This document shows positions 1,071 through 24,245 of a stretch of 64,000 nucleotides of DNA, in pieces. The notes under the pieces are model-generated. The model saw nothing but the letters and a program-made list of their open reading frames with translations, was not told the DNA's origin and made no database searches. A program made the position numbers and the translations under genes. Within the stretch, counting starts at the first letter, position 1. Every line of letters starts with the position of its first letter. Source of the stretch: Phellopilus nigrolimitatus (Eukaryota; Basidiomycota; Agaricomycetes; Hymenochaetales; Hymenochaetaceae); NCBI GenBank assembly GCA_021029095.1, contig JAJOHG010000049.1, positions 176,403 to 240,402 on the forward strand. Reading direction: 5' to 3'.

Positions 1071-2388
1071 TTACGATCCCTGACGTAAGGAAGGATCGTC
1101 CTACTAACTGGTCATTATCTTTGTGCTTGCATATGTTTGTTGCGGCTGTGCTGCAATACAAAAAGTGTACAAAAAGTGCGTTAAGCGAGTGTACTTTGGT
1201 ATCGGCGCCCGTGCCACATCATTACAATTTGTGTCCTCACTTCAAACTTGTCTCCTTTTTGGGAAGACGAGGTTGCTCACCACCTTTCACTTTCGTATTT
1301 TTGCCATAACTTTTGTTTCACTGCCCATCCATCAGAAATTCTTTTTGCTGTGGGTAGTGCCATGTAATTAGAACAGGAATATGTAAAAAAATTGAGTGTT
1401 TTACGTGCATTTGTATTTTTATGGGTGGATGTTCACCGGCATCTTCATCCTTGCCACCTGAGGTCGGTCTTCACGACTTGAGTTCAATTCTGCATTCAGA
1501 TTTCTTGCTCTGTAAATTATATCAGTCAGAAGACCTTCTTACAAGCTATGATCTGGTGCTTTTACCTTGCATTTATGTTGGGTACTTGATTCTGTACGTA
1601 GCTTTCAATAGCCTGTCAAATGGCTGTTTAGTTCGTTTTTTGTTAGGTTGAATATTTAATATTTAATTCTACTTTTTTTCCCAGTCGATAGAGCTCAATG
1701 AGACCTTCCTGAAGGTGTGCTTTATATCTCCATACCATGTATTGTCATTTATTTATGCTGTATATAAGTTCGAGCAATTGGCCGGTCAGTGCAGATCTTA
1801 CTTTCCCACGGTTGTTGTGCTGTCCTCCACACTCAGGACGACACAATTTACATCAAAACCAGTTCACTTGTCAGTTTAGTAAATTACAGATCAAAGTAGC
1901 AACCTGCATACTGAGGCCACTACAGTATTTACCTATTTACCTGTAGGCTACTTAAATGTGCTTCAGGCTGTGAATAATTCAGTATATCAAGGGACTTGAA
2001 GGCAGAGACAATTGTTGTCATACAACGACAGCAAGGCTCTGAGAGGAAAATTTAAGATAGAAAAAGAAACAGTCAGCGGACCCCACCGCGAGTCGGCTCC
2101 TAAGTGGTCACCATTGGACACGCCGACATGAGGTCCAATAACAAGTAGAAAGTTGAAAACTAAATTAAAACTCTGCAGACAACAGCACAAGGCAAGCCAT
2201 CTGACAGAGACATCCACCACGAGCCGGCTCCTAAGTGGTCACCATTGGGCACGCCGGTGGATGTTGCAAGAAGTGTAAAGTAAAATAAATAGCTACTATC
2301 ATACCTGTGTGACAAGTGTCTTCTTCCGGTCTGCAGTCGTTGTCGGACACTCACAGCGTCGTTCTCTGCATTGTTACATAGTACCCCA
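1071..2388. other. AT-rich non-coding stretch at the left edge of mosaic block 1
   Basis: No convincing coding sequence. The first bases after the copia break (GTTACGATCCC, 1070-1080) match the inner part of the MITE terminal repeat found at 12702-12712 in inverted orientation. An ACAAAAAGTGTACAAA motif follows about 90 bp further on and recurs near 41470, beside another copia break. The only structured part is a pair of hairpin sequences at 2078-2263. Small open frames here have no family motif and look like chance. Confidence 0.6.
2078..2263. repeat. Two copies of a conserved hairpin sequence
   Basis: The units lie at 2078-2136 and 2211-2263 and share the core CTCCTAAGTGGTCACCATTG. Unit 1 can close with GGACC/GGTCC and GTCGGC/GCCGAC. 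Unit 2 can close with CATCCA/TGGATG and CCGGC/GCCGG. The outer stems differ in sequence but both pair, and one inner pair changes from T-A to C-G, as expected if folding is under selection. The function is unknown: a structured RNA or a transposon subterminal hairpin are both possible. Confidence 0.55.
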
Positions 2389-3855
2389 TCAATCGCCACG
2401 CGTGCGCCGCCTGGACCATATTGCGAACGGCACCGCCCACACGTCGCGCAGGGCCGCTTGCGCCGCGAAGAGTAGGGAGAACACGTTCAGCGGGGTCGTG
2501 TGCTTCGCGAGGCTGCACACGAGCCTGTCTTTCGTCTTCTGGGACAGCATCGACAACTCCGCAGTGCACCAGCCTTCGCCGAAGAGGCCTACGAGCGTGC
2601 GGCGGGCACCACACTCGAGGTAGGCGTTCTGCACATTCGGACGGACGGAGAAGAGTAGCACGCGCGGGGCGCGGCGGGCGGACGGGCGGCAGCGGCAGCT
2701 GCTGGAGCCCCAGCGGCCGCCAGTAATACACTTGTACTCCGCGAATTCAAGGAAGGCATGGAAAAGCCCATCCAGCATCTCCTGAACGAGGCGCGCCTGG
2801 ACCTCGTCGTGAAGGGACTGGAGCTGGAGGTAGTTTGCGGAGCAGAGGATTGCAAAGGCGGCGTCGAGGTCATATGACCGGTTCGAGAAGTTGACAGTGC
2901 CCGAGTAGAGGTAGCCGAGAGTAAAGTGCATTGCGGGCGGGGTGAATGGCGGGGATGGTAGTCGGACTCTTGCTGGCTCCCCGAGAGCAGGTGTGTTTTT
3001 GAGGCCGTAGGTGATGAGTTGGTCATAGAAATAAGGCGAGCACGTCACGAGAATGAAACGGTGTGACCAGAAAATAGCAGCAGTCTCTTCTTCAGACGAG
3101 CCGGACGCAGACTGGACTTCTCCGGTAAGCTCGATCTCAACGTCGGAGTAAAGACGCGACCTCCACATAAAGACGAGGTCTTTGCGCAGTTTATCAATGC
3201 GCGTCTCGTCCGCGTCCGCGTCACCCTCTGCAGCCTGCTCATTTGCGTCGAAGAGGAAGGCGAAGGCCTCACCGAGGCCTTTGCCAGTGTAGAGATAGTC
3301 AAGCTTATTGGCGAGGAGCGCGGGCTTGTGCGCGAGGGGGATGTGGGTGAGGGAGCCGATAACGGAGGGTGCAGGAGACGCGGAGCGGAAGTGGGAGGGC
3401 GAGCCGGAGCAGAGGGAGGCGGGGTAGGGGAAGTCGACGCCGAGGTTGAGGGACAGTGCGGAGGTGGTGGGCATGGGGAGAGATGGCGTCGGGGAAGCGG
3501 CGAAGAGTAGCGGGGACGCGACGGGAGCGGAACGGAAGGTGAAGTAGCGAGCCTGGAAGCTCGGCGGTGCGCGCGCGTACACAATAGCTAATAGTTGACA
3601 GTCAGCGGGCCAAAGATGGCTAGACACTAGTGGATGCGCGCTCACCTTTATGACCTCAGACCTCCTCACTTCATCAACGAGATCCCAGACAACGCCGGGA
3701 AAGCGGTCTTTCGAGTGATGAAAGAGGGCTTGGAGGTCGTCCTGCCATACGGAAGTCGAGTTCTTTGTAACCTTGAGCAGGGTGGGCGGGCGCATAGGCA
3801 GATGGAGACCTTGATTCACGGCAAACAGACATGATAGAAGAGAAAGAAAGAACAA
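2389..3855 (-). CDS. BTB/POZ-domain protein, C-terminally truncated
   Basis: The longest uninterrupted host-like frame in the window (488 codons). The middle carries a BTB/POZ fold (DVEIELTGEVQ, SHRFILVTCSPYFYDQL, LGYLYSGTVNF), followed by a helical BACK-like part (LVQEMLDGLFHAFLEFAEY and onward). The coding character fades near 2400, where the sequence joins unrelated DNA, so the C-terminus is probably lost. Codons for VSAHPLVSSHLWPADCQLL (about 3595-3650) look like a retained in-frame intron: GTGAGC at the start and CTATTAG at the end. It is divergent from the gene at 4080, and the two share a short promoter region. The N-terminal third is duplicated at 38440-38835. Whether it is expressed cannot be told. 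Confidence 0.6.
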   Translation of the reverse strand: MFFLSLLSCLFAVNQGLHLPMRPPTLLKVTKNSTSVWQDDLQALFHHSKDRFPGVVWDLVDEVRRSEVIKVSAHPLVSSHLWPADCQLLAIVYARAPPSFQARYFTFRSAPVASPLLFAASPTPSLPMPTTSALSLNLGVDFPYPASLCSGSPSHFRSASPAPSVIGSLTHIPLAHKPALLANKLDYLYTGKGLGEAFAFLFDANEQAAEGDADADETRIDKLRKDLVFMWRSRLYSDVEIELTGEVQSASGSSEEETAAIFWSHRFILVTCSPYFYDQLITYGLKNTPALGEPARVRLPSPPFTPPAMHFTLGYLYSGTVNFSNRSYDLDAAFAILCSANYLQLQSLHDEVQARLVQEMLDGLFHAFLEFAEYKCITGGRWGSSSCRCRPSARRAPRVLLFSVRPNVQNAYLECGARRTLVGLFGEGWCTAELSMLSQKTKDRLVCSLAKHTTPLNVFSLLFAAQAALRDVWAVPFAIWSRRRTRGD

Positions 3856-10240: not shown

Positions 10241-10433
10241 TCTAGTGTCGCTTCCTCTTGGCCTAGGGCATACCACGAGTCCTTGATACCCGTGGGTACC
10301 CGTGACCCGACCCGGACTGCAGATCCGTATTCACGGATCACCCGTTGACGGGTGATCCGTGGGAAACGGATTGTTGCGGGTCCAGGTCGGGGATTTGCAA
10401 ATTTTCAATACCCGCGGGTATTTTCCATGTCGC

Positions 10434-10700
10434 GGTCTTCCACTTGGACCTGCCATTGCTCGTCAGCGGCAGCGAGGACGGCACTGTCAAGCTCTGGAAC
10501 AGCGGCACGTACTGCCTCGAGAACACACTCAGTTACGCGCTCGAGCGCACCTGGTGCGTCGCCGTGCACCCGCACGCGAACAACATCGCATTCGGCTTCG
10601 ACGAGGGTCGTCAAGCTCGGCCGCGACGAGCCCGCGCTCAGCATGGACCCTGCCGGCAAGCTCGTCTACACGCAGGCCGCCATGGACGTCGAGATGCGTA
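10434..10700 (+). pseudogene. SEC27: COPI coat beta-prime subunit (SEC27/COPB2) WD-repeat fragment
   Basis: One WD repeat and part of the next: FHLDLPLLVSGSEDGTVKLW, TYCLENTLSYALERTWCVAV, NNIAFGFDEG, then after a frameshift VVKLGRDEPALSMDPAGKLV. This run is specific for COPB2, the COPI vesicle coat subunit. It is only about 90 codons of a protein of roughly 900, with no start or end, and lies wholly inside hAT-1. The following 250 bp (NPLVTSAVATFEDAYHHRL, LHPWRVKMLMAAPTL) look coding but I cannot place them. Confidence 0.88.
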
Positions 10701-10989
10701 AGGGCCAGTGCATCCGTGCGCGAGCATCTCGCCTCAGGCGGCCTCGACACGTCGCTCGTGCTCACGCCGTGCACGCCTGCCTCCGCCTCCACGCAGCGCG
10801 CTCAACCCGCTCGTGACGAGCGCGGTGGCAACGTTCGAGGACGCGTACCACCACCGCCTCATGTACCTAACCGGCGACGCAGCAGGGACGGGGACGGGCC
10901 TGCACCCGTGGCGCGTGAAAATGCTCATGGCCGCCCCCACGCTGCACGCGCCGCGCGTGGCGCCCCCAGAGGGCGCGAGAAAGAGATAA

Positions 10990-11410
10990 AAGGCACTCAA
11001 ACACACCAAGGTGTCGCTGGGCTGTACGACTACGGTCCGCCAGGGTCGGCTCTGCAAGCGAACATCATCGCGGAATGCGCCGCCATTTCATTATCGACGA
11101 GCACATGCTTGAGCTCGACACGACGATCATGACACTTGCTCCTGTCTTCGAGACGTCCGGACACGTAGGGCGCTTTGCGGACTGGATGGTCAAGGACACA
11201 AAGACCGGCGATGTCCTTCGAGCGGATCACCTTGTCAAGGGTGTTCTCGAGGCGCGGCTCGCAGGGGACAAGGAGGCGCGCGGCGTGAGTGCTGTTCTTG
11301 TAAAGGAGGACGATAAAAAGAGGAAGAAGAAGGTGAAGACGACGGCGGTCAAGCTCGAGGACGAGACTGTGGGTGAATATGAAAGCATTCTTGCACAGGT
11401 GAGCGTCTAG
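10990..11410 (+). pseudogene. GRS1: Glycyl-tRNA synthetase N-terminal fragment
   Basis: Reads GVAGLYDYGPPGSALQANII, then in a shifted frame RRHFIIDEHMLELDTTIMTL, PVFETSGHVGRFADWMVKD and TGDVLRADHLV, which is the class II catalytic N-terminus of glycyl-tRNA synthetase in the correct order. A basic KKRKKKVKTTAVKLED insert follows, then a possible splice donor (GTGAGC at 11400). The motif 2 and 3 regions are absent. Captured inside hAT-1 on the same strand as SEC27. Confidence 0.9.
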
Positions 11411-12060
11411 ACTGTTTGTCGTTGACCCCCTTTTTCTTCTTTGGTGGGACGAGGAGGCTTCGTCAAAACCCAGACGAGTAGGTCACTGAACAGTATTTTA
11501 TCTGCGGCTATTATGAGGCATATTCGGAAGAAAAGCAGGCAAGTGATAATCAGTCGTCCGTCCAGTTTGCAGTAATGCTAATGTAAAATGACTTTAGATG
11601 CGGAGTGCAGACGAAGGATCTACGATTCTATATACCGTGCGTGCCGCATTTTCTGCGCTAATTTTCTCACTCTTAAGCTTTTCTCATCAGTGTGTTTCCT
11701 GCCGACATGGCTGGCGTCTAAACAACTGATGTGGCAAGACGCGAGGGACTAAACGTCACAGTACACACTCGGATAATCCACCACGTGTAAAACTACAACA
11801 CGCTCGCCAGACTGGCTATACGTGCCCACGTCGCCCGCGCCCATCGCCACGTTCGCATTCTTGCCGCCCGCCTGCACATCGGGCAGGGGCAGGGGCAGCA
11901 CGGCGGCGCTTCTGCTTCTCGCGCATGCCGACGCGACACTCCCGGTGTTCGACGTCGAGGCGCGGCGCTTCCCCGCATAAGCCCGCTCAATACCATCTAG
12001 CATTTTTCTTTTGTCTTTTTAATTAGAATAAAGTTGTATTTAATTGATTTAAGACCCGCA
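11411..12060. other. hAT-1 interior without a recognisable gene
   Basis: The first 350 bp are low-coding. At about 11790-11990 a plus-strand frame reads SPDWLYVPTSPAPIATFAFL and LLLLAHADATLPVFDVEARR, which looks like a WD-repeat protein piece, but I cannot name it. After 12050 the conserved right-end block of the element begins. Confidence 0.4.
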
Positions 12061-12339
12061 GGGAGCCGTGAACAGAACCTTGACCTCTGTGACCCGGACC
12101 CACGGGTTTGGGGGGACCCGTGAATCCGTGTCTCTACAGATCCAGGTCAACCCGGGTCCGGGTCGAGGTTTTTTTGTCACGGGTGACCCGCCAAACGGGT
12201 CCGGGTCAACCCACGGGTGGACTCGTGGTATGCCCTATCTTGGCCACATGCGAAAATAACTGATGGATTCGCTCTCGTCGGTCTACGCGCTCTTGTTTGG
12301 TGACACTGCAGGTTTAAATTATTTTATACATTTACCATA

Positions 12340-12742
12340 CTTGGGTAGTGGCCACTGCTCCGCATGGCAGGTTACGATCCCACAGTGGCTGATGCAGATA
12401 TAAATAAAGGTTTGGTAATAACGAAAAAAAATGGTAGTGTGAAAAAGGTTCATGACTTATTCTGTATTAGTAGTATTAGTAGTATGAAGAAAATTATTCA
12501 AATGTTAAGTATAAATAACAGTCAATATGTAATTTAGACCTACAACCTAGAACAACAACTCACATTTACCAGCTTATGCTGCCTTCCCATCATCAAATCC
12601 TCATCATATCTGGCCATTTTCTTCATACTACTAAAACAGAATAAGTCCTGAACCTTTTTCACACTACCAAACCTTTATTTATATCTGCATCAGCCACTGT
12701 GGGATCGTAACCTGCCATGCGGAGCAGTGGCCACTACCCAAG
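12340..12742. mobile_element. Foldback MITE with long terminal inverted repeats
   Basis: Ends are CTTGGGTAGTGGCCACTGCT and its inverse, with arms of at least 130 bp that pair apart from a 16-bp insertion in the left arm (about 12420). Flanked by TA on both sides, as for Tc1/mariner-type MITEs. It abuts copia A on its right but not on its left, so this junction has been rearranged since insertion. Related end sequence occurs at 34115 and, as an inner 8-11 bp piece, at 1070 and 41380. Confidence 0.8.
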
Positions 12743-13417
12743 TAGGAGAGCGATTGTGTACATGAACAAAAGCATTGACCGCATCCCACCAGAAACTGGC
12801 AGGCAGGTGTGCTTCGTTCAGCATAGTAGTAATGCCCTCAGCCAAAGTGCGATTAGCACGCTCAGCTACTCCATTCTGGTGGGGTTCATCACGAACAGTG
12901 TGTTGCCGGTGAATCCCTTCAGAAATGCAGAATTGCTCCCATGCCTTGGGCATGTATTCTCCTCCCTTGTCATCGCGCGTCGCTTTGATCTTCAGGTTGA
13001 GCTGGTTCTCTGCATGTGCTTTGTAGCGCTTGAAAGCGTCAAATGCGTCGCTTTTCTTCTTAAGGGGTATGACTCCCCAGCGCCGACTGTAATCATCAAT
13101 GAATGTGATCCAGTAATGATAACCATGCCGAGTTTGAACTGGCAGAGGGCCATGCACATCAGAGTGGACCAGCTGCAACAGACCAGTAGAGTGATGAGAT
13201 GCAAGTCTTGAGACATTTGACCGGTGCTGCTTGCCTGCAATGCAAGGCTCGCAGATTGGGTCAGGCGACTCCATAGACTTCACAATAATCCCCTTAACCA
13301 TGTCATGATCAATCAGTCTCTTCACATCCCCATGATTCAAGTGCGCAAAACGACGATGCCAGAGCGTTAAGTCGAGTGGACAGGTGCTAACCATGCCAGA
13401 GAATTGGGTCATGGGCA
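12743..13417 (-). mobile_element. Copia A, upstream piece (pre-integrase and integrase core)
   Basis: Antisense copia polyprotein starting at MPMTQFSGMVST and running through LWHRRFAHLNHGDVKRLI and CEPCIAGK (integrase zinc region), SDVHGPLPVQTRHGYHYW and NGVAERANRTL (catalytic core), to VHVHNRSPT. Coding continues at 1070. The upstream end is cut at 13417 by the LTR of copia B. The frame is open through this piece. Confidence 0.93.
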
Positions 13418-14593
13418 TATTGGATATAGTATGATCTTGGACACTTTTATTCCTTTTATTATTTTGCGTACCAGGTGACTTGAACTCCTGACTTGTTGTT
13501 CTGCGTCACCTGACATGTTGATGTATTATGTAATGCTTCCCTTGAAGCGGCAGAGTCCATGGATGGTGCTCTCTATCTTTTGCACTCATCCATTGGACTC
13601 AGGCATGTTTAGTTTCTCTAATACATTATCTTTTGCACTCATCCATTGGACTCAGGTCACTGTCTGTGTTTGTTGTGAGACCACTTCGCCTCACAGGTTA
13701 TGAGCCTTGCGCTGTAACTTCACAACAACGTTCAGTACATCGTCGACAACATCCTCCTTGATTTTCGTTCAAATCGGAGTTGATCTGGTCCCTCTGGAAG
13801 AGTTTCTGTCAACTGCAAAGTTCTGGGTGTTCGGATTGGGCTGTAATCGCAGGGTTGGGTTCTGTGGTGTGTCCGTCGCCTTTGTGTCGATTTTCGTGCC
13901 GCCATTCGCACTTGCTGGCACTCTACACCCCTCTGCTTCGACATCCATCCTTATCATCCTCTCATCTGCACTCTCTGCTTTTCGTCTCATCGCGCAAAAT
14001 CGGCTGGACGGATCGTGCTGAAACTTCGCACGTCGTCTCGTTACTCTGGTCCCACTCGTCGTACCAACTTGTGGCCGATTCGACTTTGAATTGAGAGTGC
14101 TGCATCGATTTCGACTTTTGCAGTCTCTATCTGTCTGTTTGTCTGCTCCCTGCATCGTCTTTGCATAGCGGACTCAGTTCTTGCTCGATCGCTCTGCGAT
14201 TTTACACGCGTACTCGTGCTCACGTCGTCTCGGTGTGTGTTGAGTTTCGTCTCAATCGCTCCACCCGTTCCCCCTCTGTGTCGCGTTTTGCGCAGTTTGC
14301 CAGCTCTGGTACCTGACAGTTCAGACCCATTTCATTCCATTTGGTTGTTGTTGGATCAGATAGTCTATTGGTTGTGAAGCTCGACTGCAGGGCCTTAGTT
14401 TGCCCTTTGTGACGCTCTTTTGAGTGTTTACTTAAGCCTAGAGCCTCTCTCATCCAGCGGTGCCTGCGGAGTCTTAACAGACTGACAGACCAGCACTGTC
14501 TTGCGACGATTCTGTGTATACATCGATTATTTTGGGTGTTTGGAATCTGTTTGGCTGGTATTGATCTGATATCTGCAAATCGCGTAATTCGGC

Positions 14594-14953
14594 TTGTACA
14601 CGTTTTCGGCCATCACGCCCCAACCGCTTGTCCGATTGATCCCCAACTTCGCACTCTCACTCGCACCACCATCGTCTACCATCACTCGCATCGTCATGTC
14701 CGCATCTACCACCTCCGACTCGCAATCGACATTTTCCTTCGCTAAGCTCAATGACAGCAACTATGCGACATGGAAACTCGAAATGCGAGCTGCTCTCCAA
14801 GCCAAGACTCTCTGGCGCATCGCTTCTGGCATTGCGACGAAACCGTCAAAGGCAGAGGAGCAGGAGGCATGGGAGGAGAAATCGGAGCAAGCAGCCGGTT
14901 TTATCTACGGAAAACTCGAGCATGGCATGCAGATGCGAGCGAGCACCATCTGA
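14594..14953 (+). CDS. Truncated copia Gag (119 codons) of copia B
   Basis: The start matches the copia E ORF (MYTFSAITPQP, then MSASTTSDSQ and LNDSNYATWKLEM, the UBN2/DUF4219-like Gag head). Where E continues MQILVQDDLD, this copy reads MQMRASTI and stops, because sequence from the linker (GCGAGCGAGC) is fused here. The same stub with the same tail is in copia C. The product would lack the zinc knuckle. Confidence 0.75.
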   Translation: MYTFSAITPQPLVRLIPNFALSLAPPSSTITRIVMSASTTSDSQSTFSFAKLNDSNYATWKLEMRAALQAKTLWRIASGIATKPSKAEEQEAWEEKSEQAAGFIYGKLEHGMQMRASTI

Positions 14954-16810
14954 TGTCCCTCCTGACCCTCCTGTGTTCTCTCCCTCTGCTCACCCTCCTC
15001 CTGCGAAACGACCTAAAGAGCCTCCTGCTCCCACTCCTGCACCTGAATCTACACCTGCATCTGAAGCGCCTTCCTGGCCTTCAACATCCTGGCGCCCTCA
15101 GCCGCGTCCCATGCATGGGTACAGAGATGCAGTGATTAATCCACTTGCAGATTATCCAGGTCGTCGCATTCCTAGGGCTCCAGCTGCACCAGCACCAGCA
15201 GCAGCACCTACACCTGAGCCTGTGATTGAGCGCAGTGACGAGTTAGACATCATGTCTGAGGATGAGATGCAGGCTGAGGCACTTATGTTTGCTGGGCTTA
15301 TGGACTTTGGGGCAAATGCGGCACTTGAGGACTGCTACATCAGTTTTGAGGACGCACACAATCATGTGTTGAAGTCTACAAACTGCTTTGAGCATGTCTT
15401 CTCTGCGGAGGTGCGCACCCAGTATGGTCCTGAGCCAGTACACTGGAGAGACATCAAGGGACGTCCTGACGCTTCCCTTTGGGAACAGGCTGCAATGGAC
15501 GAGTTTATCAGTCTTGTTGAGAATGGCACCTTCACCCCAGTCAGACTTCCTTCTGGTCGCAAGACCATTGGCTGTCGGTGGGTGTTCAAACTCAAGCGCA
15601 AGGCAGATGGCTCAGTGGACAGGCACAAGGCGCGACTAGTGGCAAAGGGTTACTCACAGCGCCCTGGCTTAGAGTTTGCACAGGTGTTTGCTCCTACTGC
15701 CAAGTGGGCTGCACTTCGCGCTATACTGGCCTTGGCTGCAATTGAGGACCTGGAGTTGTTCAGCATTGACATCTCCACTGCGTTCCTCAATGGTGACTTG
15801 GATCATGACGTCTACATGGATCAACCAGAAGGATTTGAGGAGTACTATGGCGCCGGCTTTGTGCTTAAGCTTGCTAAGGCGATCTATGGTCTTAAGCAAG
15901 CTGGGCGCCAATGGCACAAGAAACTCGACTCTGTGTTGAAGGGCATGGGCTTCTCCTTGGTTCGCTGCGATAACAGCATTTGGGTCTACAGACGCGACGA
16001 TGTGCGCATCATCATTCCAGTCTATGTGGATGACATGACCATTGCTGCAAAGTCGAAGGAGCAATTCTTGTTTGTCAAGCGCGAACTTGAAAAGCACTTC
16101 AAACTGCACGACCTCGGCCCTACCTCCTTCCTGCTTGGCGTCCATATTGAGAGAGACCGCTCAATCCGATCCTTATCCCTATCTCAGCGCCAATACATCA
16201 CTGACTTGCTTGAGCGTTTTGAAATGGCTGGATGCGGCGAGGTTTCCACCCCACTACCAGAAGGCCATCGTCTAAGCAAGTCCATGGGTCCCCTCACTCC
16301 AGAAGAGATCGCATTCATGAAGACTGTCCCCTACAGGCAGCTGATTGGTGCACTCATGTATCTGGCTGTGGCAACGCGTCCTGACATCTCCTATGTGGTT
16401 GGACTTCTTGCGCGCTTCAGTTCTAATCCTGGTCCTGCTCACTGGAAGGCTGCAAAGCACTTGTGTCGTTACCTTCAGGGTACCAAAGACATGAAGTTGA
16501 CTTATGCGCCTGACAAGAACTCGTCTGAATTGTTCACCACATTCACTGACGCGGACCATGGAGGGGATGAGGATGACAGGCGCTCTACAAGCGGCCTGGT
16601 GGTTAAGATGGGAACTGGTGCTATCAGCTGGGCTAGTCGTCTTCAGACTATTGTGACACTCTCCACCACTGAAGCGGAATACATCTCTGCTGTTCAGGGC
16701 GGTCAGGAGATTATGTGGTTGCGCAACTTGTTCTCAGAATTTGGCTATGAATTCAATGCGCCCTCCACACTCTATGTGGACAACCAGTCTGCCCTTGCTG
16801 TTGCCAGGAA
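14935..16810 (+). pseudogene. Copia B linker, reverse transcriptase and RNase H
   Basis: A continuous frame from APSDVPPDPPVFSP through the Pro-rich linker, RT (KTIGCRWVFKLKRKADG, FLNGDLDHDVYMDQPEGFEE, VYVDDMTIAAKS with the YVDD active site) and RNase H (TDADHGGDEDDRRSTSG, YVDNQSALAVARN). It is out of frame with the Gag stub and is cut at RN by the gypsy. The last 63 codons (PEHHGRMKHLDLRHYW to MLGLL) lie at 31521-31704. Confidence 0.9.
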
Positions 16811-17183
16811 TGTTAGAATGGTGATCACCTGACCTATTTGTGAGTATCGTTCTTCTGTGATCGGTCTTGTTCTTGTTGGTAGTAAAACGAAGTAAATTTT
16901 ACTGGGGCGTCAAGGCCCCCTACCGCGGATTTATATACCCGTACAAGTGTGATGTTACAGGCGTTACTTCTACTTGTTCGTGTAGTGTCTTTACTGGAAA
17001 GTTCGTCGTGTTTCTACTACTACTTATTGTTTATTCCGTTTATCATTCTGGAGTCCGTGTCCATTCCGTCTCCATTCTTCCAGTCCATTCCTCGCCTTTC
17101 CATTTGATTATTTATTCCGTTGGTTTCCGAATTTCGTATTGATTGGTTTGTGGCTTTTGTCGATCCGTGGCGCGGTCGTGCTT

Positions 17184-17894
17184 CTAATCGAGATCGACGT
17201 CCATGTCCCTGGTTTGAGTTTCGCTTCTGGCTTCTAGCCCGTCCAGCAGATTAACTTGGGCCGATCTCCGGGTGTATCCGTGTTCCGCGGGCGGGGGTTT
17301 ATCCGTATATAGATACGCGGTGATCCTATCGTTATTGTAATCTTTTGTTTGAATATAATCCTCTGTCGTGGATCCGTATTTGGCAGTGTTCTTTAATGTT
17401 GTTTGTATTCGTTTTCTAATCCGCTCATTAATGTATGCGGGCCATTCTCCTGACCGTTCTCGGAATGGTGTGTTGACCGTTATTTCTGGCCATCCGCATT
17501 TAGCCCTGTGTTCGTCTTCTCGGTAGATGACGGATACATGCGCGTTGATGAGATATTCGTCCACCTCGTTACTGAATAGTTTTACGTAATGATTGGTAAG
17601 CGTGATCTTCTTCCCGGCGAGTACGACTTCTTCCTCTTGATGTTTTGTTTGGATTGTAATGTTTTGTTTTAGGATGTCTGGTATGATTACTTCCTGGCAT
17701 ATAATTTGGTACGCGTCCCATCCCATTGTGTATGCTCTTTCGCACGGTGCGCATAAGTATGGTGTGTTTGGTTCCTTGATTTTGTGTTCGCTGGTTTTAG
17801 CTCTTCGGTTCCTTGTATTGATTAGGTCCGTGATGCATGCGGCGATGGGTCCTAGTTTGTCATGCCCTTTCCAGTGTTTGGTTGATTGCCACAT
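17184..17894 (-). CDS. LTR-encoded ORF, 236 codons (3' LTR copy)
   Basis: Lies wholly inside the 3' LTR on the same strand as gag-pol, starting about 24 bp into the LTR. It has a CAPCERAY motif near the N-terminus, an acidic tail (ETQTRDMDVDLD) and no membrane segment. No known gypsy protein resembles it, as far as I can tell. Its persistence as an open frame of two thirds of the LTR suggests it is translated. The function is unknown. Confidence 0.6.
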   Translation of the reverse strand: MWQSTKHWKGHDKLGPIAACITDLINTRNRRAKTSEHKIKEPNTPYLCAPCERAYTMGWDAYQIICQEVIIPDILKQNITIQTKHQEEEVVLAGKKITLTNHYVKLFSNEVDEYLINAHVSVIYREDEHRAKCGWPEITVNTPFRERSGEWPAYINERIRKRIQTTLKNTAKYGSTTEDYIQTKDYNNDRITAYLYTDKPPPAEHGYTRRSAQVNLLDGLEARSETQTRDMDVDLD

Positions 17895-17918
17895 CGCTTA
17901 TGTAACAATTTCCTAACA

Positions 17919-18892
17919 CTCCACCTACTAAGGCAAATTTCTAGGAGCGTAGTGAAGAGAAATTTGACTATTTAATTGTTACATCGAAAAAAATTGTTAT
18001 TTTTAGAAAACGCTGGGGGGAGGGGTGGGGTAGGTGCGGAAGGTGGGCATAATGGGGTCGTTGGTGCGGGGGAGGTGTGTGTGCGCGGATGGGGGTGGTG
18101 ACGGGAGGACGTATGAGTCCTATTAGGTGTTGTTAGGAGTATTATATGTGTTAAGTTTGTTTGAAACTTACAAGGATAACGTTGGAGAGGTCCTGGCGGT
18201 TCCATCCCATCGCCGCTGCTGGGCCGAGGTAGGTAAGTTCCGTCGGGTAGGAACGGGGTGGTTTGGTGTAACGGCGTATCAGCCACATTGTGCCGAGGTA
18301 CGTCGCGGTGAACCCAATCGCGCTGGCCAGGGCAAGAAGCGTGGCAGTGGGGACATTCATGTTTGGGGTGTCAAAGAGAGTGCTGATGTCGGGTTGATAA
18401 GGGCGCTGTTAGGCGCTGGTGTCTTCGGTTCCTGATCACGTGTGGTTTATTATTAGGACCTGCTTAACTTTGTGTCGGTCCCCAACTGTATGTCCAATTT
18501 CGTTGCAATCGTCTGATAGTCAGTGCGTTGCTTCTTTCAGGCGGACGACTGCGCGAAGGGTCTTTTCGGTGGTAGGGTTCGTGATCCGTCGAATTATCCT
18601 ACCCGGCCTTCCATTTCCCTGTGTATAATGCTTTCCGTTTCCTACCTCGTTGCCGCGGAGGGGAGTATACATGGTCCCCTATATGCTGTCGCTAGCGCGG
18701 ATTATCGCAGGATGACACGGGTATCGGCCTAGGGCGGGGTGTGTCATCGTTTCGCAACGTGGGCCTTCCTTGAATAGTATTCCGTGTTATACAGCGGGGT
18801 TTGCGTGCCGGTAATCGTTCGAGGTTCGTATCCGTCTCGACTGGCATCCGGTGGTGCCCCATAGTTTAATGTCATTGCGGACGTAACTTGTT
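17919..18892 (-). other. Gypsy region between pol and the 3' LTR
   Basis: No long frame. Short sense-strand frames include about 50 codons (MYTPLRGNEVGNGKHY, near 18670) and 69 codons at 18151-18360 with an N-terminal hydrophobic segment (ATLLALASAIGFTATYLGT). The latter could be a tiny membrane protein, but it is too small for an envelope protein. Otherwise probably untranslated. Confidence 0.45.
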
Positions 18893-19978
18893 TTATTTAG
18901 TTCGTTCCATTAATGGAATATTATCGTCCATCCAGTCGTCGAGATCTGGTGGCTTAAGAGCGTCGGGGTGGTCGCGATGGAATTGTCGGACTAATTCCGC
19001 GGAGTGTGTGAGAGTGTCCAGTTCTTGCCAGGTATCTTCAGCTTGGGTGAATCCTTTCCATCGTACTAAATAGCAAACTTTTCGTTTGTACTTTCCGCTG
19101 TCTAAGATTTTAGAGACCTCGTATTCCGGTTCGCCTTCCACTAATTCTGGCTCCGGGAAGTTTGGTTCTGCCCTTCCGGGTATATTCTGTTGTTTATATG
19201 GTATTAATAAACTAGAATGGAAGGTCGGATGAATGGGCATGGATGGGGGTAGTTTAAGTTCGTAATTAACTGGACCGTGTTGTTGGGTAATTTCATAAGG
19301 TCCGATGTTACGGTGTCCTAGTTTCCGTGTTGGTACACGGAGGTTTAGGTTGCGTGTGTCAAGTAAAACCTTATCTCCTATTTGATAAGTCGGTAACTTT
19401 CCCCGATGTGTGTCCGCATATTGCTTCATTTGTTGTTGGGCTTTCTTCAATGCTTCCGTGGCTGCTAGTTGCGCTTCCTTAGCTTGTTCGATAAATTGTT
19501 TGGCTTCTGGTGCTTGAGATAAGCGTGGTAACGGTTGCATTTGCGGGTGTACGCCGTAAAGCGCAAAGAATGGCGTCTGCTTTGTTGCACCGTGTTCTCG
19601 ATTATTATAGGCGAATTCGGCCGTTGATAAGAGGTCGGTCCAATTTGTTTGTCTATGCTCGACATAGCAGCGTAGGTATTGCTCTAGTTCTTGGTTCAAT
19701 CTTTCTGTCTGCCCGTCGGTTTGTGGGTGATAAGCGGTGCTTAGCGCCATTTCGATGTTCAGCATTTTGCATGCTTCGATCATGAATTTGCTTGCAAATT
19801 GTGGTCCCCTGTCGGAAGTTATCTTTTCTGGCGTGCCATATTTGGTAAAGATTTCATTAATGAATAGTTGTGCCGTCTGTTTGGCTGTTACGGTATCGTT
19901 GCATGGTAGGAATCGTCCCATTTTGGTTAGGCGGTCAATGATGACTAGAATAGCGTTATACCCTGATGAGGTTGGTAG
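18893..19978 (-). CDS. Gypsy pol, integrase C-terminal half with chromodomain
   Basis: Continuation of pol after hAT-2. It resumes at LPTSSGYNAILVIIDRLTKM (integrase core), then GPQFASKFMIEACKMLNIEM, AYHPQTDGQTERLNQELEQY (catalytic region), the GPY/F-like TRKLGHRNIGPYEI, and a terminal chromodomain YEVSKILDSGKYKRKVCYLV, RWKGFTQAEDTWQEL. Chromodomain integrases direct insertion to modified histones. It ends at a TAA near 18893. No lesion other than the hAT insertion is visible. Confidence 0.93.
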   Translation of the reverse strand, partial: LPTSSGYNAILVIIDRLTKMGRFLPCNDTVTAKQTAQLFINEIFTKYGTPEKITSDRGPQFASKFMIEACKMLNIEMALSTAYHPQTDGQTERLNQELEQYLRCYVEHRQTNWTDLLSTAEFAYNNREHGATKQTPFFALYGVHPQMQPLPRLSQAPEAKQFIEQAKEAQLAATEALKKAQQQMKQYADTHRGKLPTYQIGDKVLLDTRNLNLRVPTRKLGHRNIGPYEITQQHGPVNYELKLPPSMPIHPTFHSSLLIPYKQQNIPGRAEPNFPEPELVEGEPEYEVSKILDSGKYKRKVCYLVRWKGFTQAEDTWQELDTLTHSAELVRQFHRDHPDALKPPDLDDWMDDNIPLMERTK

Positions 19979-20339
19979 TAGGGCATACCACGAGTCCCTA
20001 GAACCCGTGGAAACCCGTGACCCGACCCCGACTGCAGATCCATATTCACGGATCACCCGTACACGGGTGAACCGTGGGAAATGGATTTTCGCGGGTCCGG
20101 GTTGAGAATTTGTGATTTTTCAATACCTGCGGGTAGTTCACAGGTATTCAAGGTCTGAGGAGCAGTAGTAGTTCATTAATTTTTATAGAGTATTTATGTA
20201 TGTATGGAAATACAAATTGAATCAGCAATGACATAAACGTGAAAGCATTATGGAGGTAACATCCCCAGAGTTGGTGCCGAAGACGCATTTGATCGTGTCC
20301 GACTCCGCGCAGTGCGTCCGGCGCAGGGCCACAACGAGG

Positions 20340-20605
20340 TGGATGAGCACGGGGAAAGCTCGCATCGCCGGAAATTGCGAAGCTGTCGACGGCGAGCGAA
20401 TTGAGGGTCTTGAATTCCTCTATCTGGGCCGGCACAGTGCGCGCGGAACTGATCTTGGCGAGGCAGTCGGAGACAAAGAGAATGAGGACCATGAGGACGC
20501 GGTCAGCGAGTCCCTTGATCTCGAAGAAATTGCAGAAGAGCGAGTTCGCGTGGAAGAGATCGAGCGTCTCGCCAAGAACGTTGGCCTCGCTGGCATCCGC
20601 TGGTA
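20340..20605 (-). pseudogene. ARP2/3 complex subunit ARPC3, exon 2
   Basis: Reads LGETLDLFHANSLFCNF, FEIKGLADRV, LILFVSDCLAKI and LNSLAVDSFAISGDASFP, the core of ARPC3 (p21), a small subunit of the actin-nucleating ARP2/3 complex. A splice acceptor (ACTACCAG) precedes it. After GDASFP the expected end is missing and an unrelated frame follows (VLIHLVVALRRTHC). Exon 1 is at 22737-22855, and hAT-3 lies in the intron between them. Confidence 0.88.
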
Positions 20606-20864
20606 GTCTCGGGTCAGTGATATTTGTGCAAGCAGTATGTAGAGACGCTAGGGCTCACCACGAGTCCACCCGTGGGTTGACCCGGACCCGTTGGCGGGTC
20701 ACCCGTGACGAAAAAACCTCGACCCGGACCCGCCTTGACCTGGATCCGTTGGGACACGGATCCACGGGTCCTCAGAAACCCGCGGGTGCGGGTCAAGCAG
20801 GTCGACGGTTAGTTCACGGGTTTTTGTAGCATTTATTATAATACGTGTAGTAAAGACGAAAGGA

Positions 20865-20957
20865 AACATGGGAGCACCTGGGAGCCCAGAGAGTTTGGCC
20901 CACGCGCGGTTCGAGTACCATCGGCCTTGCAAGAACTTTGAGGCTAGAATGAGCGCT
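20865..20957 (-). pseudogene. PCL-type cyclin exon captured in hAT-3
   Basis: Reads [20 protein letters not shown] then KLSGLP, the same cyclin-box stretch as 8800-8890. It is joined directly to an EF-G exon at about 20958. This is an independent capture or copy, since several bases differ from the block 1 copy. Confidence 0.75.
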
Positions 20958-21300
20958 GCGAGAAGTGTACAACGAGGGGAGAAGGCAGAAGCGGCTCGGG
21001 AACGAACACGGACGTCATCGAGTACTTCGTTGCGCCGTCCATGAACGTGTCGCCCGATGCGTCTGGAAGAGAAGGTGAGTTAGAAAGATAGGTAACACGA
21101 AAGGACAGGCCGAGAGGACCGACCTTGTACTCCATCGTGAACTTTGCCCTGAGTCTGTCCGCGCAGCTGGCTCGAGTATCCGAACATGTCATTCAGCGCC
21201 ACCTCTGCCGTCACCGTGAACTCGTCGTCGTGCACCTCGCTGTCCAGGATTGTCCCCCGCCGGGACGTGACACCGCCGATCACACTGCCTAAAAGCAATC
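20958..21300 (-). pseudogene. MEF1: Mitochondrial EF-G, C-terminal exon and a second copy of an internal exon
   Basis: From 21300 downward: [38 protein letters not shown] (domain V of EF-G) and LRGQTQGK. After an intron-like stretch comes [20 protein letters not shown], which repeats an exon already present at about 21997-22070 with a few substitutions. The order domain V then domain II-III exon is wrong for the protein, so this is a rearranged tail. Confidence 0.8.
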
Positions 21301-21437
21301 GTCAGCGCCAGCCAGCCCACAAGAGAAAAACCCGCAAAAAAGAAACAAAAACAAAAACGCTACGCACTCTGGAACTCGACGGGCGCGACAACCTCGACGG
21401 TCATGATCGGCTCGAGGATCACCGGCTGTGTTTTGGC

Positions 21438-22500
21438 TTAGTTCTCGCGCAGGGCCACGATCGTGCAGACGCGGAAGGCAAGTTCGGATGAGTCGACGAC
21501 GTGGAACGCGCCGTCCTTGAGCACGAAGTGGATGCCCGTGATCGGCGCGAGCCCTTCAAAATCGCCTCCTTGAAGCCCTTCTCGATGCTGGGAATGTACT
21601 ACTCGGGGACGTTCCCGCTCATGTCGACGTTCTCGAACTCCGTATCGCGCCCCGTCTCGGGGTCGCGGCTCGAAGTAGCCCGCGATGCGTGCGAGCTGGC
21701 CTGCGCAGCCCGTTTGCTTGCGGTGCATGTATACGAACTCGCAGCGCCGCGTCGGCGTCTCGTGGTACGCGACCTGCGGGCGGCCCGTCGTGCACTCGAC
21801 GCCGTACTCGCGGCGCATGCGCTCGACGTACACCTCGAGGTGCAGCTCGCCCATGCCCGACACAATCGTCTCCTTGCTCTCGTGGTCGATGTGCACGCGG
21901 AACGTCGGGTCCTCGCGCTGGAAGCGCTGCAGCGCGCGCGAGAAGTTCGGCGTCTCCTGCCCGACGGGCTTCAGCGCGAGCGACACGACCGGCTCGGGCA
22001 CGAACATGGACGTCATCGAGTACTTCGTCGCGCCGTCCGTGAACGTGTCGCCCGACGCGCACTCGACGCCGAAGATCGTGCAGATCTCGCCCGGCCCGAT
22101 CGACTCGATGTCCTCCATCTCGTTGCTGTGCATGCGCACGAGCCGCGGCACCTTGACCTTCTTGCTCGTGCGCGTGTGGAAGATGTGCTGCGCCTTCTTC
22201 AGGCTGCCCTGGTACACGTACGTCAGCTGCCCGAAGCGGCTCTCCTCGAGCTTGAACGCGAGCGCGATGAGCGGCACCTCTGCCGCGGGCACGAGCGCGA
22301 CCGGCGGCGCGGAGAGCGGCAGCGTCATGTCGTGTGCGACCACGCGCGTTTCGGCCGGAAGTACGCGCACACGCCGTCGAGCAGCGGCTGCGCTGCCGTG
22401 TTCTTGATCGCGGACCCGAGGAACGCCGCCAGCGTAGTAGAGGATGCGCTTGGTGAGCGTCGTCTTGCCCGAGTCGATGTCTTGAGAGAGAAAGAACTGC
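21438..22500 (-). pseudogene. MEF1: Mitochondrial elongation factor G (MEF1), central fragment
   Basis: Reads [19 protein letters not shown] (start of the GTPase domain), then jumps to [100 protein letters not shown] and [20 protein letters not shown]. Most of the G domain is deleted between the first two blocks. The frame is open for about 360 codons, but the last 100 drift out of the family frame near 21650. It is translocase-derived yet cannot hydrolyse GTP. Confidence 0.9.
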
Positions 22501-22736
22501 ATTCTTCGCCTAGTGTTGCACATTCTCTTCTGCGGGGTGCGTGGACAGGCCGATGTTGCGCTGCTTGCGCAAGGGGACCCGCGGGTATTGAAAAATCACA
22601 AAATCTCGACCCGGACCCGTGACAATACGTTTCCCACGGATCACCCGTTGACGGGTGATCCGTGAATACGGATCTGTAGTCCGGGTTTGGTCACGGGTTT
22701 CCACGGGTTTTAAGGACTCGTGGTGAGCTCTAAGAG

Positions 22737-22855
22737 ACGCACCTATTAGCGCGGGTCTGCGAATCTTCGTCCTGATGGGGAGAATGGACATGTTGCTGAC
22801 CTGGCGGACGTCGGGGAGCTCATTGAAGGATGAGTGATATGCCTCGTACACGATG
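22737..22855 (-). pseudogene. ARPC3 exon 1
   Basis: Reads AYHSSFNELPDVRQVSNMSI then LPIRTKIRRPALIG, the N-terminus of ARPC3 without its first residues. The donor GTGCGT follows at once, and the duplicated target of hAT-3 lies in this intron. Upstream it is fused in frame to an unrecognised coding piece (LAELGAFDLALGANIVYE). Confidence 0.85.
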
Positions 22856-23110
22856 TTCGCGCCGAGCGCGAGGTCGAACGCACCCAGCTCGGCCAGTACG
22901 TAAAACCTGTGCCCCTCCCCTTCCGCCGCAGCGCACTCGGGAATCCCGAGCAGCGTGGACGCGCCAACGAGCGACTCCACGAGGACGCGCGTGCCAGCCC
23001 ACGGCTGTATGCCGACGCTAGCGTAGTCGCCGTACATCTACGAGGCGCACTGCAACCACGCCGAACGCGAACGTGTATGCAAGCCGCCCGGCGCTTGACA
23101 AGCCGAACCA
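22856..23110 (-). pseudogene. Unrecognised coding fragment fused to ARPC3
   Basis: An open minus-strand frame reads MYGDYASVGIQPWAGTRVLV, GASTLLGIPECAAAE and FYVLAELGAFDLALGANIVY. It has coding-like codon use and continues in frame into ARPC3 exon 1. I do not recognise the family. Confidence 0.4.
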
Positions 23111-23117
23111 TGAAGAA

Positions 23118-23771
23118 CTAAGCGAAAGCAGCGGACTCGTTGTTCGATGTGTCTCGACCGAGCGCGGACACGGTTTCTACGGAGGCAGAGACAGACGCGG
23201 TGCTAAAGTGGACGAAGATTTGGGTGTTGAGAGCGAAGCAGTTGAAGGCGTCGAAGAGAACCCTGCCGAACCAGATCCAGAGCTGCGCGAGCGGGACAGG
23301 AATGCAGAGAACGGGGCGGTCTTTGTCCTTAGAAAGACTGAACTCTTTCGCATCCGGGTTCAGACCCTTCTTGCGCGCCTTTGCATACATGTCCTTAGAC
23401 GAGGTGAGCCAGCCGGAGCGGAGAGCAGTCGTGCTCGCGGTGGTCTCTCTGTGCTCAGAACCTGTCGAGAACATGTCATCCAGCACAGCCCGAGAGTCCG
23501 CAAAGTCTGAAACACACAGTCTGGTGGGGAATGCCGCGCGCTGGGTGTCCATGTGCAGTGAGCCCTGGCACTCATGTACAGGTAAGTGAGTCTCGAACGG
23601 ATCGAATGGATCAAATTCGCACACAGAATCCGATGGCGACACAGGCGAAGTATCCGCGCCAGAACACGCGGGACCACACAGTAGCTGGCCGATGTCTCCT
23701 GCGGAGCTGTTGCAGGGGTTCAACCAATTACGATCAAGAAAGATGTTGACCTCGGACTGAAAGGAGCGCAC
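23118..23771 (-). pseudogene. Unrecognised 217-codon open frame in hAT-2
   Basis: Minus-strand frame with blocks DSRAVLDDMFSTGSEHRET, RSGWLTSSKDMYAKARKKG and ALNTQIFVHFSTASVSASVE. Codon use is coding-like, but no motif is recognisable. It lies between eIF3a and ARPC3 on the same strand and is probably another captured piece or several joined pieces. Confidence 0.4.
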
Positions 23772-23774
23772 GCC

Positions 23775-24030
23775 GCGAGCAGCGCCGCGGCGTCCTCAAC
23801 GGAGATCGTCGACATCAACGAGGGCGATGGCTTCTCCGAGTCCTGTGCATCTTAATGTCGGCGACGGTGAAGAAGTGCTTGATGACGGCCTCGATGGAGG
23901 CGACGGACATTCCGCACAATGTTCTTGTACTGCATAAGGCCTTCCTTCGCAGTGCGTCCTTTGCGTATGTCGACGGAGACCTCGACGATAATGGGCTCGA
24001 GCGCGGCGAGTGGTGTGGAGTGCCCGCTTA
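23775..24030 (-). pseudogene. TIF32: Translation initiation factor eIF3a N-terminal fragment
   Basis: Reads ALEPIIVEVSVDIRKGRTAK and EGLMQYKNIVRNV, then in shifted frames SVASIEAVIKHFFTVADIKM and SEKPSPSLMSTISVEDAAAL. The VDxRKGRTAKEGLxQYKN run is diagnostic of eIF3a, the scaffold of eIF3. At least two frameshifts are present. It adjoins the right-end block of hAT-2. Confidence 0.85.
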
Positions 24031-24245
24031 CTAATATAACAAGTGTTTCAAAAAACCGTAGGGAGCCACGAACAAACCCGTGACCTCCGTGACCTGGAAC
24101 CGTGGGAATTGGGTGACCCGTGGATCCGAATCCCAACGGGTCCAGGTCAAGCCGGCTCCGGGTTGAGGATTTTGGGTCACGGGTAGATCCGCCAACAGGT
24201 CCGGGTCAACCCGGGGATCGACTCGTGGTATGCCCTAGTTGGTAG

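Follow-up and report, generated by a model that had tools for sequence, protein, structure and literature searches.

Non-autonomous hAT elements carrying patchworks of host-gene pieces in the fungus Phellopilus nigrolimitatus, likely moved by the transposase of a sister element

The capture of gene sequences by transposons with terminal inverted repeats (TIRs) is well documented in plants and has recently been described in animals, while the reports found for fungi deal with one or two genes in each family of elements. Known gene carriers include the Pack-MULEs of rice, members of the Mutator superfamily with longer TIRs and 9-bp duplications, which form chimeras from several genes and for which a gap-filling model exists, as well as Helitrons, which are rolling-circle transposons without TIRs that insert without duplicating their target. 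The hAT superfamily is defined by an 8-bp target site duplication, with nTnnnnAn as target pattern, and by short TIRs starting with TA or CA; abortive gap repair is a source of internally rearranged Ds elements. Here, we describe a series of hAT elements in the basidiomycete Phellopilus nigrolimitatus, based on a stretch of 64,000 bp (hereafter, the window; contig JAJOHG010000049.1 of assembly GCA_021029095.1, C434:176403-240402) that contains three of them. Like Pack-MULEs, they are multi-gene chimeras to which a gap-filling model can be applied, but they belong to a different superfamily. We are quite confident that they are non-autonomous hAT elements filled with patchworks of host-gene pieces, likely moved by the transposase of a sister element and likely built by interrupted break repair. 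A whole Pack-hAT series and a complete sister element with an open transposase gene thus occur within one fungal genome, the donor genes of most pieces in the window are approximately 85-95% identical, copies within several groups are 99.9-100% identical, and layers of capture can be read, including a filler present in one of six members of a group. In this organism, whose genome is small, the disputed route of gene uptake can thus be tested directly, and the shuffling of genes by transposons, known best from plants, likely takes place in fungi as well.

Plant Pack-TYPE elements, which include hAT members and among which Pack-hAT elements have been named in maize, are likewise non-autonomous TIR elements with gene-derived interiors that occur in multi-copy clusters (PMC8903248). 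In contrast to the published definition, which specifies a plant host, the host here is a fungus, and a transposase-carrying partner with the same ends was identified; furthermore, the interiors in the window are nested mosaics with filler, whereas tandem insertion followed by re-mobilization is favored for plants (PMC8903248). Animal Pack-TIRs also contain captured genomic DNA from donors without TIR elements, and microhomology and template switching have been discussed for them, but multicopy cases are few and 56.9% are located near their donor (PMC8277862, which also names the Pack-MULEs of rice); here, many groups are multicopy and donors were found on other contigs. In fungi, hAT elements carrying histone H3 have been reported from Pyrenophora tritici-repentis, with a long form that contains the transposase and a short form that does not (PMC3538342, where a Tc1/mariner element with added coding regions is described as well), and from Pseudocercospora and its relatives (PMC6710886). 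These are likewise fungal hAT elements that amplify a housekeeping gene, but a single gene is involved, as an intron-less copy in Pseudocercospora (PMC6710886), whereas the elements described here combine many genes in mosaic interiors with predicted intron sequence kept, and no histone domain was found in 70 Pfam-tested segments or in the scanned pieces of the window. The Helitrons of Pleurotus ostreatus are another example of basidiomycete transposons with captured genes (PMC4289320). A first-pass annotation of the window, made from the sequence alone, had been aware of no described fungal hAT family of this kind; in view of the histone H3 elements this statement has to be qualified. A many-gene Pack-hAT family in a fungus was not among the results listed in a literature search that left most subscription papers outside its reach.

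The three elements lie exactly where the first-pass annotation had placed them, and each is flanked by an exact 8-bp duplication. They share the terminus TAGGGC[AT][TC]ACCACGAGTC, from which element 3 deviates at one of its ends by a single G-to-A change. The end blocks adjoining the termini are shared as well, with lengths of approximately 160 bp on the left and 187 bp on the right rather than the 165 and 180 bp given previously. Element 3 is nested in element 2, within a piece of the gene ARPC3 carried by the latter. The boundaries are as follows:

10256..10263 and 12238-12245: exactly matching left and right copies of the duplication TCTTGGCC of element 1
10264..12237, plus strand: element 1 (group F01), 1974 bp
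10264..10423, plus strand: left end block of element 1, approximately 160 bp, 91.9% identical to C423 and 85.6% to C603
12051..12237, plus strand: right end block of element 1, approximately 187 bp
19971..19978 and 24238-24245: exactly matching left and right copies of the duplication GTTGGTAG of element 2
19979..24237, plus strand: element 2 (group F26), 2167 bp after subtraction of the nested element 3 and one duplication copy
24051..24237, plus strand: right end block of element 2
20641..20648 and 22733-22740: left and right copies of the duplication AGAGACGC of element 3, inside a predicted ARPC3 intron
20649..22732, minus strand: element 3 (group F03), 2084 bp, with its left end at 22732

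The genome examined comprises 56.4 Mb in 635 contigs. With up to 2 mismatches, the first 18 bases of the terminus were found at 259 places (118 forward, 141 reverse), and the reversed pattern, used as a control, was found at none; a chance origin of the terminus is excluded. For the analysis of whole elements, 65 pairs including those of the window were selected for having two ends, and they represent a subset rather than a census; unpaired termini (L067, L076, L077, and L078) and the short search loci L001-L008 were left out. The terminus or a close variant of it is present at both ends of the paired elements, and an exact 8-bp duplication flanks 61 of the 65, with 60 distinct sequences among them, since L047 and L052 have one duplication in common and apparently represent the same insertion. 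This shared duplication also accounts for the exact matches (2 of 3906) that were obtained when the partners of 63 pairs were shuffled. Considering both strands, T reaches a frequency of 0.38 at position 2 of the duplication, mirrored by A at position 7; C/G at positions 4/5 is equally frequent, so that any target preference is weak. The elements thus show the 8-bp duplications and, at both ends, the short terminal repeats starting with TA that characterize hAT transposons. A Helitron identity, considered as well, was ruled out by the TIRs and the 8-bp duplications.

The copies do not share one interior: after removal of the end blocks, the 65 elements fell into 28 interior groups. One (F00; 431-474 bp, 8 copies fetched) resembles miniature inverted-repeat transposable elements (MITEs), one (F11) carries the transposase, and the other 26 are gene-length (1.5-3.6 kb). 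The interior of element 1 (F01) was found in 6 fetched copies, 98.5-100% identical, at six sites with six duplications, and the patchwork therefore moves as a unit. Groups F06 and F07 are each present at three sites with differing duplications, and the copies of F06, F07, F08, and F10 are 99.9-100% identical across sites, which suggests recent movement. For element 3 (F03), 6 members were fetched that are 91.5-99.8% identical, two of which represent a longer 3.1-kb form, while the interior of element 2 (F26) occurs once.

Host genes were identified in 18 of the 26 gene-length groups, in 17 of them through a domain above the curated Pfam cut-off. Segments for this search were picked by coding score, and 17 of 40 matched at E<=0.001; in a second set, 11 of 30 matched at E<=0.01, two of them above 0.001. 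Housekeeping genes that act in translation and secretion are the source of most pieces, and the identified domains and genes include RPS19 (F06, F14, F16), eIF3a (F06), eIF2alpha (F16), the EF-G GTPase domain (F21), STT3 (F07, F25), the CPSase large chain (F08, F12), an Argonaute Piwi domain (F14), CNOT1 (F18), FTR1 (F27), an NAD epimerase (F02), FHA (F04, F15), and a P21-Rho-binding domain (F19). F13, which matches G-alpha, is the group identified below the cut-off. As in Pack-TYPE elements, transposon ends therefore enclose host-gene interiors, and F01, F06, and F07, together with the empty sites described below, document mobilization as a unit after capture.

Empty sites, which the first-pass annotation had named as a test in related strains, were found in this same genome by searching with the joined flanks of an element and one copy of its duplication. 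Gapless alignments of 300 bp to repeats of the window were obtained for L024 (91%), L049 (96%), L055 (98%), L059 (99%), and L061 (98%). For element 1, the whole 294-bp query aligned at one locus with 87% identity and gaps, and two more loci extend across the junction by 24 bp with 91% identity; the empty site of element 3 is the ARPC3 donor (254 bp at 89%). For the remaining elements, the sequences compared contained spans that are incomplete or gapped, or no span. Several repeat blocks of the window are thus empty sites for Pack elements. The window as a whole (1-64000) contains many repeated blocks in both orientations, mostly 91-100% identical, which apparently represent nested retrotransposon-like DNA.

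The first-pass annotation had also suggested looking for an autonomous hAT with the same termini, and transposase-carrying elements of this kind were indeed found. C423, at 6592 bp the longest of the paired elements, harbors a gene modeled by eye with ten GT-AG introns, whose predicted product of 763 amino acids has the hAT dimerization domain PF05699 (1.5e-9). A complete element of 5556 bp at C603:962483-968038 has the same terminus at both ends and the exact duplication TTTCAATA; its transposase frame is open across 11 exons mapped from C423 without internal stops, with GT donors in 10 of 10 introns and AG acceptors in 9 of 10. A transposase with a C-terminal dimerization domain is therefore located within these ends, in C423 and, as a homologous open gene, in C603. 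Relatives of C423 at 80-83% identity are C603, C290, C488, C4, and C622, of which C4 has this terminus, with a single mismatch, at its end. Among named proteins, those closest to the transposase come from Antrodiella citrinella (44-48% across most of the length), Phanerochaete, Coprinopsis, Trametes, and Ganoderma, which by itself makes an agaricomycete host likely. One representative of each of the 26 gene-length groups and the MITE-like group was compared with the transposase-carrying elements, and all 27 share their ends, over approximately 154-180 bp on the left (longer in F08 and F12) and 170-260 bp on the right; in F08, F12, F19, F21, and F23, some sequence beyond the end blocks is common to both as well. 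The transposase of the complete sister element likely moves the gene-carrying elements, and we infer its action on these ends.

Seven places with PF05699 (L069-L075) had been considered as the partner and were rejected, as none has a terminus within 3 mismatches; at 4 mismatches, one terminus each was found in L069 and L074. These hAT domains without the termini make it likely that several hAT families coexist. The PF05699 search of the genome missed the real partner, the likely reason being an intron that divides its domain. The transposase-carrying elements furthermore have up to approximately 1.8 kb in common upstream of the transposase, with 80-82% identity (L031 approximately 1267-3073, C423; L090-L092). 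Three open reading frames (ORFs) in or at the edge of this stretch had no Pfam match above the cut-off, and the stretch may correspond to a second gene or to an old capture.

The interiors of the window elements were compared with the genome to locate the donors, using the part to the right of element 3 in the case of element 2. For donors, introns were predicted by eye from GT-AG borders and domain continuity. The pieces are listed below:

10430..10715, plus strand: COPB2/SEC27-type WD40 piece, 90% identical to donor L081 (84% over a 43-bp tail)
10719-10875 and 10883-10977, plus strand: two pieces of a second WD40 gene, 89% identical to L082 443-602 and 988-1082
10977..11460, plus strand: GlyRS piece that includes the beginning of a predicted intron, 93% identical to donor L079
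11472..11823: C190 piece, 94% identical to C190:44008-44359
11823..11976, plus strand: third piece of the second WD40 gene, 85% identical to L082 1585-1741 and colinear with the first two
20351..20648, resuming at 22733-22844, minus strand: ARPC3 piece, 90% and 95% identical to donor L085, with the predicted intron kept
20880..21061: piece 89% identical to C564:10833-11014
20992..21061, minus strand: 70-bp MEF1 piece, an out-of-order second copy, 93% identical to L083 1511-1580; also window repeat D13
21057..22428, minus strand: MEF1 (mitochondrial elongation factor G) piece with a whole predicted intron, 92.7% identical to donor L083
22480..22537: 58-bp filler, identical to C511:169215-169272 in 57 of 58 positions
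22893..23091, resuming at 23766-23801: C230/C157 piece, 70-74% and 92-94% identical, split by the serine-rich piece
23091..23769, minus strand: piece of a serine-rich 602-aa ORF, 88-89% identical to C112:523530 and C339:1779
23903..24013, minus strand: eIF3a-like piece

The interior of element 1 was consequently built from at least 4 loci (element coordinates 167-452, COPB2; 456-612 and 620-714, WD40; 714-1197, GlyRS; 1209-1560, C190; 1560-1713, WD40). Matches in Pfam or the PDB bear out most gene names proposed by the first-pass annotation: the L081 ORF contains a COPA/B propeller (Pfam, 2.4e-39), the GlyRS piece matches glycine-tRNA ligase (PDB, 1.2e-16), the ARPC3 halves match P21-Arc (Pfam, 4.8e-20 and 3.1e-6), and EF-G domains (Pfam) lie on both sides of the predicted MEF1 intron. 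The eIF3a label finds weaker backing (Pfam, 1e-5 with 25.2 bits, under the cut-off of 27; PDB, 0.007), and the proposed cyclin, located in the C564-matching piece, returned neither Pfam families nor PDB matches. The second WD40 gene, whose L082 ORF matches WD40 at 1.5e-5 (25.8 bits, under the cut-off of 27), the serine-rich ORF, and further pieces without a gene name had not been mentioned there. Within the C564-matching piece, a stretch of 66-85 bp (20880-20964) recurs at about a dozen places with 84-92% identity. A wrong-frame stretch of MEF1, searched against viral contigs, had no match.

Donors are 93% identical to the captured pieces for GlyRS and MEF1, 94% for C190, 90% for COPB2, 85-89% for WD40, 90-95% for ARPC3, and 88% for the serine-rich ORF. 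As expected for donors of Pack-TYPE elements, the seven fetched loci of 1.0-3.3 kb are located elsewhere and do not contain a terminus within 4 mismatches. The F01 copies are closer to each other (98.5-100%) than to the donors (85-94%); capture therefore preceded spread. That the elements capture and move gene pieces, previously proposed as an inference, is thus supported by shared ends, distinct duplications, donors without ends, and empty sites.

How the patchworks were assembled is indicated by their borders. Where pieces meet in the window elements, they leave gaps of up to 11 bp or overlap by up to 5 bp, the 5-bp overlap being at the 70-bp MEF1 repeat. The serine-rich piece is located within the C230/C157 piece, which lost 14 bp there, and the 58-bp filler, which splits MEF1 in the window copy, is missing from the five sister members of F03. 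As the three WD40 pieces are colinear in their donor, GlyRS and C190 DNA apparently replaced the inner part of an earlier WD40 capture. Judged from the sequence, the junctions and filler of elements 1-3 are those of templated filler at repaired breaks, and mosaics, near-blunt junctions, nested pieces, and filler together point to interrupted gap repair with template switching. A break or an excision gap inside an element would start the repair, and the gap would be filled by DNA synthesis switching among unrelated templates; new pieces would therefore land inside older ones. The finished patchwork would then spread by cut and paste.

An alternative route, which we consider unlikely, is tandem insertion, in which two elements insert on either side of a gene piece and, once their inner ends are lost, move as one. 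It has been proposed for plant Pack-CACTA elements and published as the likely shared route of plant Pack-TYPE elements (PMC8903248, PMC13317346), and nested or neighboring copies occur here as well (L039, L047, and termini on C510). However, the seven donor loci are devoid of termini, and pieces that measure between 58 bp and 1.4 kb and derive from unlinked loci abut with no more than the small gaps and overlaps described above, some of them nested, so that this route would require many rounds, each precisely removing all internal ends. We give far less credit to an uptake of cDNA or retrocopies by a hAT element, as has been argued for histone H3 in Pseudocercospora fijiensis (PMC6710886), since predicted introns are kept for the three donors compared in detail, ARPC3, MEF1 (the whole intron), and GlyRS (the intron start); the template was therefore genomic DNA. 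Equally improbable is that independent MITEs flank host-gene pieces by chance without forming a mobile unit: the MITE-like group F00 has the same ends, but 61 of 65 pairs have the duplication at their outermost borders, the same interiors recur with different duplications (F01, F06, and F07), and the empty sites lack both ends together with the interior. This explanation is already refuted for groups with at least two independent copies, and not for single-copy groups. Finally, inverted near-identical pairs (C423, C131, C606) and a GlyRS donor copy with frame-breaking indels could suggest assembly chimeras or collapsed repeats, but with the F01 patchwork nearly identical on different contigs and with different duplications, such an origin is hardly credible.

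In weighing interrupted repair and movement by the sister transposase, several observations count against this account. Neither a transposition nor a repair event was observed directly. Of the 65 pairs, 4 have no exact duplication: both copies of the inverted pair on C423 are mismatched at 2 of 8 positions, and L035 and one L039 pair have no duplication. The full-length empty-site match of element 1 is gapped (258 bases for 294), and that of element 2 (C112:30788, partial, 93%) passes the junction by just 20 bp. Regarding the partner, one of the ten C603 intron acceptors reads AA, perhaps through an alignment shift, the stretch fetched for C290 contains no intact right terminus, C488 extends beyond the end of its contig, and C622 is fragmentary. 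Donors were examined across 1-3.3 kb and for the window elements only; among other groups, most of which were not searched, donors were located for F14 only. Some unfetched donor matches of element 2 reach just 70-80%, and three junctions in element 1 contain 3, 7, and 11 bp for which no source was found. Eight of the 26 gene-length groups (F05, F09, F10, F17, F20, F22, F23, F24) yielded no Pfam match among their tested segments. Moreover, groups share pieces in a modular manner; the number of capture events is therefore lower than 26, and the groups, which do not all have origins of their own, are connected through pieces gained and lost. Lastly, 2 of 5 codon counts for copies of MEF1, described next, deviate from the remainder: both involve the longer form L050 and lean toward position 3 (19/21/30 and 22/21/29).

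Differences between the window copy of MEF1 and its donor are distributed over codon positions 1, 2, and 3 as 14/9/32, an excess at third positions that is expected from constraint on the donor. Between short-form copies, no such excess is seen (19/11/15, 8/3/3, and 5/3/1). Captured MEF1, the one gene tested, thus seems to decay largely without selection at the protein level.

In all 7 groups with at least two different identified genes, these genes point in the same direction: F01 (COPB2, WD40, GlyRS), F04 (FHA, WD40), F06 (RPS19, eIF3a), F14 (RPS19, Piwi), F15 (COPA/B, FHA), F16 (RPS19, eIF2alpha), and F26 (ARPC3, serine-rich ORF, eIF3a), including matches under the Pfam cut-off (F04 WD40, F15 COPA/B, F26 eIF3a). 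For the 8 joins concerned, this would occur in 2 of 256 cases if they were independent coin flips; the count was made post hoc, and the joins are not fully independent, as some groups share a piece. Capture might be coupled to orientation, so that the elements assemble co-directional chimeric genes, either because the templates copied in repair are those under active transcription or because chimeras without read-through do not persist. We offer this as a tentative idea that is probably wrong, and most MEF1 counts between copies, which speak against protein-level selection, weigh against it; if true, this fungal family would be an exon-shuffling machine in operation.

Three inverted pairs of identical or near-identical elements were noted (C423:5721-19284, C131:21201-24573, C606:48709-54192), spaced by a few hundred to approximately 1100 bases. 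The flanks of the first two look mirrored, as from a true inverted duplication or an assembly fold-back, while the two duplications of the C606 pair differ. The GlyRS donor (L079 793-1290, on C379) contains frame-breaking single-base indels that are absent from the captured piece and are either assembly errors or marks of a decaying copy. In the Argonaute piece of F14, 159 bp are absent that at first looked like a lost intron; by eye they are mostly coding, and the absence is therefore taken as a skip and not as splicing. Argonaute-like sequence, searched with L015:300-2200, was found at at least 29 places of 500 bp or more among the 40 of 166 candidates that were scored (e.g., C390:58357-59819), and represents either a strongly expanded family or an amplified repeat, one piece of which is located inside the Pack element F14.

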